Assembly: GCA_017628025.1 (NCBI GenBank)
Contig: JAGBZX010000012.1
Location: 1 to 58,149 of the forward strand
From: Kiritimatiellia bacterium
GTDB lineage: Bacteria; Verrucomicrobiota; Kiritimatiellia; RFP12; UBA1067
Direction: 5' to 3'
Length of the DNA: 58,149 bases
The notes under the pieces were generated by a model. The model was not told the origin of the DNA and did no database searches. It was given only the letters and a program-made list of their open reading frames with translations. Both the position numbers and the translations under genes were made by a program. Positions 26,906 through 30,264 of the stretch are shown one piece after another (position 1 is the first letter of the stretch; each line of letters starts with the position of its first letter).

Positions 26906-26947
26906 CCAAACATCAAAAAGTAGGTCGACCTACTTTTTGATGTTTGG
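26906..26947. repeat. perfect 42-bp palindrome
   Basis: Two 21-base halves, perfectly complementary with no central spacer; the centre is GTCGAC. The inner part is AAAAA, a GTAGG/CCTAC stem and TTTTT, so it would act as a bidirectional terminator-like hairpin. It divides the sigma-like gene's upstream region from a GC-richer structured segment. Confidence 0.9.
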
Positions 26948-26984
26948 TGGATTTAAAGGAAGGGAGGAATTTGATAGACTATAA

Positions 26985-27240
26985 ATGTTCCTGAGAGGTG
27001 AATAGCCTTGAGGGGATGATAGATTTCCCGCGTGGGGCATAGGAGGGCGTGCTAAAAAGATAGGCGCCGAAGTACTGCTGCGTTTGGGACGCGTCGAGTG
27101 AAAAGCCTCGAAACTTAGAACTCCAAAGACGCATTGAAGAGGACACTGCCCAGTCCGTGCAGTTTCGCCTCCTTCAATGTTTCTTTTGAAGGTCCATCCG
27201 AGGCACCTACTCCGAGACATTGGAGGAGGTGTTTTTCTTT
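26985..27240 (+). ncRNA. candidate structured RNA / attenuator-like leader
   Basis: A stretch of about 250 nt, visibly more GC-rich than the flanks and without a convincing ORF. A TGATAGACT extended -10-like box lies at 26972-26980. Hairpins can be drawn at TCGAG/CTCGA, GCGTC/GACGC and ACTGC/GCAGT. Near the end the segment 27168-27179 can pair with 27132-27142 (antiterminator-like), with 27186-27192, or with 27218-27229 (terminator), three mutually exclusive choices. The segment GGCGCCGAAG recalls lysine riboswitches, but the rest of that consensus is not found. The strand is chosen by the T-tract. Confidence 0.4.
27168..27240 (+). terminator. putative terminator with alternative antiterminator pairing
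   Basis: Arms 27168-27179 and 27218-27229 form 12 bp with one G-T wobble, followed by TGTTTTTCTTT. The 38-nt loop is long for a simple terminator. The left arm also pairs with 27132-27142 (one bulge), which would prevent termination. Confidence 0.45.
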
Positions 27241-27434
27241 CTTGCGCTTCTTTTAATGCTCAGGCAATACTAGGTTTGCAGACGAACTACTTCATTACGG
27301 ATATTTTCGGTATTTGCGCTTCGATTGATTATCGTATAGGGGATGAGGCTAAATTTAAGAAGTATGGTGAAAAGGTTGGCGAACTTGATATGGATGGGTG
27401 GTATGCAGGTATGGGAGTAATTATGCAATTTTAG
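27222..27434 (+). pseudogene. C-terminal remnant of an outer-membrane beta-barrel protein
   Basis: The frame reads GGGVFLSCASFNAQAILGLQ, then FITDIFGICASIDYRIGD, and ends GWYAGMGVIMQF. The alternating amphipathic strands, the SIDYRIGD turn and a terminal Phe are typical of the last strands of an OmpA-like barrel and its BAM signal. No signal peptide or earlier strands are found upstream, where the structured RNA segment lies instead. It is most likely a truncated gene; a tiny functional protein is less likely. A clear terminator follows. Confidence 0.6.
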
Positions 27435-27582: not shown

Positions 27583-30264
27583 ATGAAAATATTACCATCA
27601 TTGTTTAGTGTTCTAGTTTTAACTTTTTGTGCTTTCTCCGCACAAGCAAACGTCAATTCTAAGATTGTTTCGACAAATCCAGAAAATCTTGATGTAGATC
27701 CAGATTTGCCTCAAGAGCCTGAATTGAAAATTGGTAAAAAAACTCTAGGAGAAATTGCTCAAAATAATCAGTACTTGATTTATAGCGAAGTTCCAACTGC
27801 TGTTTTTGGAGTTTATAATGACCTTAATCGTATAAAATGGCTCTCTGTTCCTACTGATTCAACTAAACCTCTCGATCAAAAAAAATGCGACGAGATAAGC
27901 GATAGGTATATAGCTAGTTGCTTCGAAAAAGCTGTAAATGCTAAAAAAGATAAAGCGGCAAGATGGATTGATTATGCGTGGGCGCTAATGTATAGATCGC
28001 GTTGGGACGACGCAATAAAAGCCTATGAAAAAGTCTTTGAAGTAGCCCCCGAAGATGGATACTCTAAGGCTCGCGCCTTTTATGGTATTGCCGATTGTCA
28101 CCTAGGAGCTGGGCGTTATGAAAAAGCCCGTCAAACGCTACATGACCAATTAGCACAAAACCTCACTTGGAAATATTCTCGTAAGCTTACGAATTGGAAT
28201 TCGAAAGCCAGACAGGTTTTGCACTGGATGGACGGGCATAACTTACTTTCGCTAAATATGCCTAGATGGACAGATTACAAAGCTTTCCCAGAGCCAAAGA
28301 GCGCTAATTACACTGAAGATTTTGAATCCGCTCCAGAGATTACGCTCGATGTGAAAGGTTTCGATGAGAAAAATGCTAGAATTGAGTTTCTTAAAAAGAA
28401 GCTTACTAGTCGAGGAGTGAAGTTCTCGTCAAAAAGCGGATATAAGCTTTTTGTCTCACTAGATGCAAATGCAACTGTAGACAAGCCAGAAGGTTATACT
28501 TTATCGATAGCAAAACAATCTGCCCAGATTCTAGCGCGCGATATGCAGGGCATACTTTGGGGGCTAGTCTCGTTTATGCAGATTTATGATTACGAAAACA
28601 AGCGACTTCGTATCTGCAAAATTGATGACTGGCCAGATTGCCCTAAGAGAGGCTTTCTTGGGCGTTGCTGTATAAACGATCTTGAGTTTATGCTTTTTAA
28701 CAAGATGAATATTAATACAGCAAAGCCAAATTACCTTACGTTAGGAATATATACTCCTTTTAATTTGTTTCTCACAAAATCAATGGCGAAGGAATATAAA
28801 GATTTTGGATTAGAATTGTATTATGGTTTTAGTTCCTTTACGATGAATTTAGCTTGGCCGCTTTGCTGGAATGTGTTTCTTGAGATGCAGCTCGAAAATG
28901 CTATGATTTGGGCTGATTGCGGCGTTGGCATTTATTATCCATATGACGATGCTCGTTATTGGCCACAGACTTATAAGCAAGAGGATATAGCGACAGGGTT
29001 GTTGCCTTCTGATTATGATGCTAAGCATTTGCTTAAGTTTTATACGCGAATTAAAGAGCGTTATCCAGATTTTAAAATGCAATTTTGTCCTCCTTTCTAT
29101 TGGGGTCCAAGAAGAGGGCACCCGTATCCAGATGATAGAACTAAATACTTAGAAAGTCTTAGGTGTTTGCCTGAGGAGGTGTCAATTTTTTGGACTGGTG
29201 AACGCGTCGGTTCTCGCCATAAGACAAAAAGTGACTGCGATTGGTATGCGGAGCGCACTGGTAGACCGCCATCACTTTTCCAAAATAAGGCAGGACTTCA
29301 TTACTATCATTCGTATGTATTAGATGAGATGCCTTGGGATGAATGGTATTACAAAGGTTTTGTAGAAAATGATATGCGCAGTATCCAGAAGAACTCTGAT
29401 ACTCCACAAGATTATCCGATATTAAGCACCTTGGCTGATTATCTCTGGAACGTAGATGGCTATGACAGAAAAAGGTCAGTTAAGAACGGTCTTGAGCAAT
29501 ATGCAGGCAAAGGTATTTATGATGTTCTTAATAGAGTATACAAAAAGTTATGCAGAATTGACAGGTATCAGTATGGGAGACTAAATTCGCGAGTCTTGTA
29601 TGAAGATGCGGCAGATTGGGAGCAGGCGTCTAAGGAAATTCATCAAGCGACAGAAGAAGCTTCTAAAATTGCAGGTCCCGTAGTGATGAAGGGTGGCTTT
29701 GGTTCGTGGACATCGGCGTTAGTGTGGTTCGATGGTATATTAAAAAGGATAAAAAATCCGCCTAATTACCACAAGTTATATGAAAAACCATATCAAAAAC
29801 TAAAGGAGCATCTTTTAGAGGATAAAGATATAGCATATAACGAAACGAAGGACATATTTATTGATCCCATAAAGTTTAGAGAGTCTTATATTGTTCCTTA
29901 TCCAACATCAAAGAAAAAGCCAATTTTGCCCACGACTTCAGTTACCGCTCTTGTTGCGTATAATCAATTTGCGACAGCGGAATTTGATTTATCAAAGATT
30001 CCAGAAGAAGGCGTCGATTTGTTTTTCAGAGGCTCAAGTCTAATTTACCCTAAAGGTTTTAAAGTTGAACTCAATGGCAAAGTGGTCTATGATGATAAAA
30101 ATGTGTTTGCAACCGAGACCTATGGTAAGTGGAGTACTTTAAAAGTAACAGTGCCAAAAGAGGTGTTAAAGAATGGTAAAAACACCATTAAATTTTATAA
30201 TAGCAAAGGCTACGGGTATGCGATATATGTAGAATTTATCGTAGTTAAGCTAAAAGGGGAGTGA
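27583..30264 (+). CDS. exported GH84-like beta-N-acetylglucosaminidase with TPR-like N-terminus
   Basis: 893 aa. A signal peptide ends at about residue 22 (FSAQA). A helical TPR-like part lies at about 120-235 (RWDDAIKAYEKVFEVAPEDG), then an alpha/beta domain like that before hexosaminidase barrels at about 255-345 (GYTLSIAKQSAQILARDMQG). The catalytic barrel has PKRGFLGR, GVGIYYPYDDARYWP with Asp455-Asp456 where GH84 has its catalytic pair, and SIFWTGERVGS like the GH84 WTG motif. The C-terminal about 110 residues form a beta-rich domain. GH84 removes GlcNAc. Catalytic residues are inferred from position; a related family is possible. Promoter placement implies a leaderless start. Confidence 0.75.
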   Translation: MKILPSLFSVLVLTFCAFSAQANVNSKIVSTNPENLDVDPDLPQEPELKIGKKTLGEIAQNNQYLIYSEVPTAVFGVYNDLNRIKWLSVPTDSTKPLDQKKCDEISDRYIASCFEKAVNAKKDKAARWIDYAWALMYRSRWDDAIKAYEKVFEVAPEDGYSKARAFYGIADCHLGAGRYEKARQTLHDQLAQNLTWKYSRKLTNWNSKARQVLHWMDGHNLLSLNMPRWTDYKAFPEPKSANYTEDFESAPEITLDVKGFDEKNARIEFLKKKLTSRGVKFSSKSGYKLFVSLDANATVDKPEGYTLSIAKQSAQILARDMQGILWGLVSFMQIYDYENKRLRICKIDDWPDCPKRGFLGRCCINDLEFMLFNKMNINTAKPNYLTLGIYTPFNLFLTKSMAKEYKDFGLELYYGFSSFTMNLAWPLCWNVFLEMQLENAMIWADCGVGIYYPYDDARYWPQTYKQEDIATGLLPSDYDAKHLLKFYTRIKERYPDFKMQFCPPFYWGPRRGHPYPDDRTKYLESLRCLPEEVSIFWTGERVGSRHKTKSDCDWYAERTGRPPSLFQNKAGLHYYHSYVLDEMPWDEWYYKGFVENDMRSIQKNSDTPQDYPILSTLADYLWNVDGYDRKRSVKNGLEQYAGKGIYDVLNRVYKKLCRIDRYQYGRLNSRVLYEDAADWEQASKEIHQATEEASKIAGPVVMKGGFGSWTSALVWFDGILKRIKNPPNYHKLYEKPYQKLKEHLLEDKDIAYNETKDIFIDPIKFRESYIVPYPTSKKKPILPTTSVTALVAYNQFATAEFDLSKIPEEGVDLFFRGSSLIYPKGFKVELNGKVVYDDKNVFATETYGKWSTLKVTVPKEVLKNGKNTIKFYNSKGYGYAIYVEFIVVKLKGE

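Follow-up and report, generated by a model that had tools for sequence, protein, structure and literature searches.

A structured RNA with a long kissing loop upstream of diverse genes in Kiritimatiellae: a probable cis-acting leader

A large structured RNA without a match in Rfam occupies positions 26987–27243 of the window, by which is meant the whole 58,149-nt stretch of a Kiritimatiellia bacterium genome analysed here. It is one copy of an RNA family that is undescribed and absent from Rfam. Comparison of the copies leaves almost no doubt that the family is a genuine structured RNA, and indicates that it probably acts in cis, as a leader of the gene that follows it. No published description for Kiritimatiellae was found in the open-access literature, most subscription journals lying outside that coverage.

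Results

An RNA family of Kiritimatiellae

The + strand from 26948 to 27245 folded to −102.9 kcal/mol (z −3.1), lower than 200/200 dinucleotide shuffles. Rfam returned nothing at gathering thresholds and no sensible family even at E≤10; the strongest matches at that level were chance plant-microRNA matches to a 42-bp palindrome, and all others fell far below their gathering scores. Acido-Lenti-1 (RF01687), one named Lentisphaerae motif, is in Rfam and had no match here. DNA searches gave matches in approximately 29 relatives, nearly all of the same genus and mostly covering a 150-nt core (window 27085–27232), together with a second copy in the source genome (contig 13, 91% identity) that ends at the contig edge. 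About 136 distinct copies were gathered with flanks; the roughly 130 that entered the comparative analysis show compensatory evolution in their stems and are fitted by no Rfam family, bearing out the original prediction that this segment might be an undescribed structured RNA. Elements of the window copy are listed here with their coordinates, strand and type of support.

26970–26980, + strand: degenerate extended −10 promoter, TTTGATAGACT (other copies have TTTGNTATAAT at this place in the alignment)
26987–27018, + strand: P1, the hairpin with which the transcript opens, GTTCC with GGGGAT, inner AGGT/GCCT (shuffle test)
27020–27088, + strand: conserved TAGATTTCCCGCG box and helix P2, inner hairpin 27046–27068 (box in 83 copies)
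27091–27132, + strand: P3, closing loop 1, GCGTC 27091–27095 with GACGC 27128–27132 (compensatory series)
27096–27099, + strand: 5′ strand of helix X, GAGT, partner 27209–27212 (shuffle test)
27105–27112, + strand: K1, loop of hairpin P3a, kissing K2 at 27197–27204 (7/8 pairs in the window)
27124–27127, + strand: 5′ strand of P4, CAAA, partner 27185–27188 (covariation)
27136–27143, + strand: purine strand R, proposed antiterminator partner of 27168–27176 (complementarity)
27141–27163, + strand: H-type pseudoknot, GGAC 27141–27144/GTCC 27153–27156 and CTGC 27146–27149/GCAG 27159–27162 (covariation)
27168–27229, + strand: P6, terminator-like stem, 27168–27183 with 27214–27229 (covariation between types)
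27190–27208, + strand: P7 hairpin, AGGT 27190–27193/ACCT 27205–27208, with K2 27197–27204 in its loop (compensation)
27230–27243, + strand: U-tract after P6 (U count)
27258–27434, + strand: remnant of a gene 3′ of the RNA, encoding the C-terminal 58 residues of a protein of roughly 250 aa (homology)

The exact core pattern occurred in 47 stretches among 84,980 bacterial and archaeal genomes. Kiritimatiellae, Lentisphaerae, Verrucomicrobia or rumen MAGs accounted for 46/47, most of them named from ruminant gut, and the one stretch in an actinobacterial record was taken as chance. Among viral contigs, the single exact-pattern match was a coding region without the core. Genome counts were made with a covariance model (R1) built from copies in this analysis, which placed the RNA in 37 of the 61 genomes of the genus, including 10/10 good-quality ones, at up to 8 matches per genome, and in 76/346 genomes of the class Kiritimatiellae, spread over 13 genera. 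Among 388 genomes sampled from the phylum, the covariance model found the RNA nowhere outside Kiritimatiellae. Besides type A there is a second, divergent subfamily, type B (30–60 bits), which can be aligned with type A from end to end. Three copies (L141, L145 and L146) represent a third subtype, in which P3 reads GGCUC/GAGCC and TATAAT is followed immediately by a very short 5′ domain.

A 96-aa ORF on the minus strand (26930–27220) is open in the window, as would be expected were the structure a chance fold of a decaying protein gene. That explanation is refuted by the other copies: no frame is conserved among them, none being open in more than 39/128, and their lengths fall into every phase (by the K1-to-P6-end distance modulo 3, the copies divide 50/44/34). 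The conserved reading frame that had been named as evidence against the original prediction was thus not found.

Core helices and kissing loop

The kiss between K1 and K2 is an exact Watson-Crick 7-mer in 119/128 copies, spelled by 27 different sequences; positions in this count were picked by best match, and the shuffled control used the same search. Over the copies, the mean K score was 18.2 for own partners as against 14.6 for shuffled partners (maximum 15.0), and within a 38-copy set K1/K2 pairing was perfect in 32/38 copies, with several sequences, compared with 17 or fewer for shuffled partners. The fit of K1 is far better to K2 of the same copy than to K2 of others.

Compensatory change was abundant elsewhere in the core. 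P3 takes the forms GCGUC/GACGC, UCGUC/GACGA, ACGUC/GACGU, GGCUC/GAGCC and GCGUU/AACGC, and P7 passes from AGGU/ACCU to GGGC/GCCU in 9 copies. P4 is paired in 95% of cells, with both sides changing in 5/6 pairs and a score of 12.2 against 10.3 for shuffles; in the GGAC/GUCC stem of the pseudoknot, a region which is a plain hairpin in type B copies, both sides change in 3/4 pairs. Long-range helix X scored 12.5 with its own partners, against a maximum of 9.7 in 200 shuffles (123 copies); a local alternative, in which X pairs with the stretch preceding P4, was retained, although only half of the alignment cells pair in it. In the 38-copy alignment A1 the named helices jointly covary beyond 500/500 shuffles and partner-slid controls, most two-sided changes falling in K, P4, the pseudoknot stem and P3a, although the copies share descent, so that significance by shuffling is overstated and it is safer to count how many different compensated sequences occur. 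The window copy retains the family pairings, the exceptions being one K mismatch and a shortened X. Judged by sequence comparison, covariation is strong enough to define the predicted fold without experiments.

In that fold, the P3 loop would contain X, P3a (with K1) and P4, and the P6 loop would contain P7 (with K2) between the partners of P4 and X. P3, X, P6 and P4 would then meet in a four-way junction without linkers, and X, P3a, P4 and P7 in a second four-way junction, with the kiss linking P3a to P7 and so joining the two loops. An arrangement of X, K and P4 as one continuous 19-bp helix excluding P3 and P6 was dropped, because the drawing with two four-way junctions lets every helix coexist. 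With every helix accommodated at once, the sequence alone does not dictate a switch. The kissing loop, helix X, P4, the pseudoknot, the promoter and the many copies before other genes go beyond the pairings proposed originally.

A terminator-like stem and its possible competitors

The original prediction paired 27168–27179 with 27218–27229, ahead of a T-tract. This pairing is P6, and comparison establishes it as a conserved, covariation-supported, terminator-like hairpin at the end of the putative leader. P6 of the window consists of 16 contiguous bp, followed by UGUUUUUCUUUCUU. Within type A the stem is nearly invariant, with mostly one-sided changes and 96.5% of cells paired; between subfamilies it is compensated, reading CCUCCUUCGGUGUAUC/GAUGCAUCGGAGGAGG in type A and CCUCUCUUCGUGUUUC/GAGACACGAAGAGAGG in type B. 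The first 12 nt after P6 contain 5.7 U in type A and 7.5 U in type B, as against 1.2–1.3 further downstream. The type A tract is interrupted by other letters, and 59/94 copies have at least 6 U in these 12 positions. A conserved GC-rich stem with a U-tract lies upstream of the gene, as in an attenuator.

Two further pairings had been proposed for the same segment. That with 27132–27142 is present, in bulged form, and its complementarity is conserved, exceeding letter-shuffled controls in both subfamilies, but it lacks the covariation that would speak for an antiterminator role. The pairing with 27186–27192 (CCUUCAA/UUGAAGG) can be made by the window copy, but the alignment shows that other copies do not share it. 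Three more candidates were set aside: a terminal hairpin, CACCUC/GAGGUG, whose formation would be at the expense of P6 (94% of cells paired, covariation absent); a leader peptide, AUG-CAU-CGG-AGG-AGG, on the 3′ side of P6, whose start codon is replaced by AAG in several copies and by AGA in the window; and a Shine-Dalgarno-like GGAGGAGGUG, which is not conserved in type B.

Promoter and 5′ domain

In type A copies an extended −10 promoter, TGNTATAAT, lies a few nucleotides upstream of P1. Matches of at least 5/6 to TATAAT were present in 60/83 type A copies, compared with 23% of shuffled windows. In the 5′ domain, P1 scored 11.2 with its own partners (shuffle maximum 10.5, n=200) and the inner hairpin of P2 10.5 (shuffle maximum 10.1); the conservation of outer P2 is too high for a covariation test.

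Type B copies (L132–L151) have in common a block, AATCTCAAATCGTGGAAACTGAAAATGAAAGGAAC, approximately 130 nt upstream of the core. It starts just after the stop codons of toxin-antitoxin-like or mobile-type genes (PIN, zeta toxin, ORF6N, PD-(D/E)XK), and may represent a different promoter or a cassette boundary. One subgroup (L042, L044, L048–L050 and L052) has a second promoter- and terminator-like unit upstream of the RNA, with a conserved CCGGCTGAGAGAGCCCGG, for which an Rfam search gave no match.

Position before varied genes

A same-strand start lay within 190 nt in about 120/136 copies with a readable downstream ORF, most gene starts falling 20–190 nt behind the core. Where there was enough flank (n=115), a same-strand ORF started within 210 nt in 98/115 copies, and the end of an antisense gene was found there in 19/115. 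Beyond P6, the tail is complementary to the ribosome-binding region (13.7, against a shuffled-partner maximum of 13.3), and in some copies, such as L133 and L151, the two form a perfect helix that ends at the start codon.

These data bear on whether the RNA is instead a free-standing small RNA of approximately 260 nt, having a promoter and a terminator to itself, while the gene is transcribed separately or by leakage. A promoter at P1, a U-tract at the end of P6 and an elaborate pseudoknotted fold of the kind typical of stand-alone RNAs would all suit such an RNA; the position, which in nearly all copies is fixed with respect to the start of a same-strand gene, the pairing of the post-P6 tail with the ribosome-binding region, and the several type B copies that have no visible sigma-70 promoter of their own would not, and we regard it as unlikely. 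Promoter, U-tract, gene position and tail pairing, taken together, favour a leader over a free RNA.

Slightly less probable again is a structural or catalytic RNA, such as a ribozyme, a protein-binding scaffold or an RNA-only multimer of the OLE, ROOL or GOLLD sort; the kiss would then be intermolecular and the gene only loosely connected. Those large bacterial RNAs have covarying kissing loops that join subunits (PMC12286853) and a complexity similar in style, and the preference of K1 for its own K2 fits intramolecular and homo-oligomeric contact alike. The tight coupling to the starts of varied coding genes nevertheless argues for control in cis.

The downstream genes are diverse, mostly encoding surface or secreted proteins, as can be seen from 97 downstream proteins searched against Pfam, which included BspA-type LRR (12), FGE-sulfatase (7), Sel1 (6), FRG (4) and C10 protease (3) domains, as well as a single kinase, SNase, Hsp70 and others. 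By a simple rule, 65/136 downstream proteins have a signal-peptide-like N-terminus. Unlike those of most metabolite riboswitches, the downstream genes share no common pathway, and for this reason a global signal would be likelier than a biosynthetic end product. The leader and an FRG-domain gene occur together in different genomes (L019, L020, L037, L038 and L215), several of these loci having the same following gene, as if leader and gene moved as a unit.

Mobile elements and the state of the window copy

A 42-bp perfect palindrome (window 26906–26947) lies directly upstream of the RNA promoter. Copies of this REP-like palindrome are found elsewhere in the genome, on contigs C13, C6, C3 and C4, and on C13 they flank a Y1 (IS200-like) transposase gene adjoining the second RNA copy. 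The original prediction had offered part of a mobile element as an alternative, and in a fuller form the segment would be such a part, or a DNA recombination site (attC-like or RAYT/REP-associated), folding as single-stranded DNA. To the adjoining palindromes and their association with the transposase can be added that the RNA is multi-copy and often near contig ends, and that type B often follows toxin-antitoxin-like genes (PIN, HepT/nucleotidyltransferase, zeta toxin), as integron cassettes do. However, the palindrome is not common to most copies, an integron integrase passes the cut-off in only 1/30 relatives (G058, a genome without the RNA), and the fixed promoter and U-tract point to RNA. 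This explanation is accordingly very improbable, and the RNA itself has no support as a mobile element, despite its neighbour.

The −10 hexamer of the window copy aligns as TAGACT, where the second copy in the genome has TAAAAT. The gene remnant at 27258–27434 sits directly after the U-tract, and its homologues are open over 246–318 aa in three congeners (G015, G034 and G013); the next intact gene (27583–30264, 893 aa, NAGidase/GH20-like) starts 350 nt off. Because the downstream gene is truncated and the −10 weak, the window copy is probably decaying, a relic, or acting weakly on the 893-aa gene at 27583.

Discussion

Control of a terminator through kissing-loop docking is the leading mechanism for this RNA, and one that the sequence comparisons make rather likely. 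Transcription would begin at the dedicated extended −10 promoter present in most type A copies, upon which P1, P2 and the core would fold. The leader would continue past P6 and the U-tract into the ribosome-binding region of the next gene. The intrinsic terminator would be P6 with its U-tract. Whether P6 forms in time would depend on the P7 loop docking with that of P3a, and the purine strand at 27136–27143 may compete for the 5′ strand of P6. A putative cellular signal (small molecule, ion or protein) would stabilise or block the docked core, and would in this way set the expression of downstream surface, secreted and accessory proteins.

More tentatively, and with somewhat more doubt than belief on our part, the family may constitute a new class of riboswitch-like sensor, in which two loops, a long kiss and two flanking helices (two linked four-way junctions) exert terminator control over dispersed surface, secreted and accessory genes. 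Were that so, one signal would set a multi-gene programme in gut Kiritimatiellae; the nature of the targets suggests that surface and secreted proteins answer to a common regulatory signal. New architectures are seldom encountered among large structured RNAs of bacteria, and the present one is plentiful in ruminant-gut bacteria that have been little studied and are mostly uncultured. A kissing hairpin inside a terminator-like stem would be a different coupling of tertiary docking to gene control.

Comparison with known systems

The original prediction noted a likeness to the lysine riboswitch (RF00168). A short string resembling its junction, GGCGCCGAAG, is indeed present, but the RF00168 model has no match at E≤10, and the resemblance does not hold. 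The lysine riboswitch contains a kissing loop, as does the present RNA. In attenuators with intrinsic terminators, as here, a GC-rich stem and U-tract lie between promoter and gene; this RNA differs in that it has no conserved leader peptide, that its controlling element would be a pseudoknotted core, and that its antiterminator is putative. The Rfam models of OLE, ROOL and GOLLD were likewise unmatched, and in contrast to those RNAs the present one is about 260 nt long and occurs in many copies per genome, before coding genes.

Functionally the nearest system appears to be the cobalamin riboswitch (RF00174), to which the RNA is unrelated and like which it would at most work. In cobalamin riboswitches the upstream domain and the expression platform each contribute a hairpin loop to a kissing contact, next to the terminator or RBS hairpin; in the metE riboswitch of P. 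megaterium this contact acts in favour of the terminator (PMC10653944). The kissing loop here is analogous, the likeness being one of principle only: there is no match in sequence, the RF00174 covariance model is unmatched at E up to 10, size and register differ, and the downstream genes suggest no B12-type ligand. Whereas the cobalamin kiss comprises 3–4 bp, that described here comprises 7–8 bp, P7 lies inside the loop of the terminator-like P6, and X and P4 are two further long-range helices that join the same two loops.
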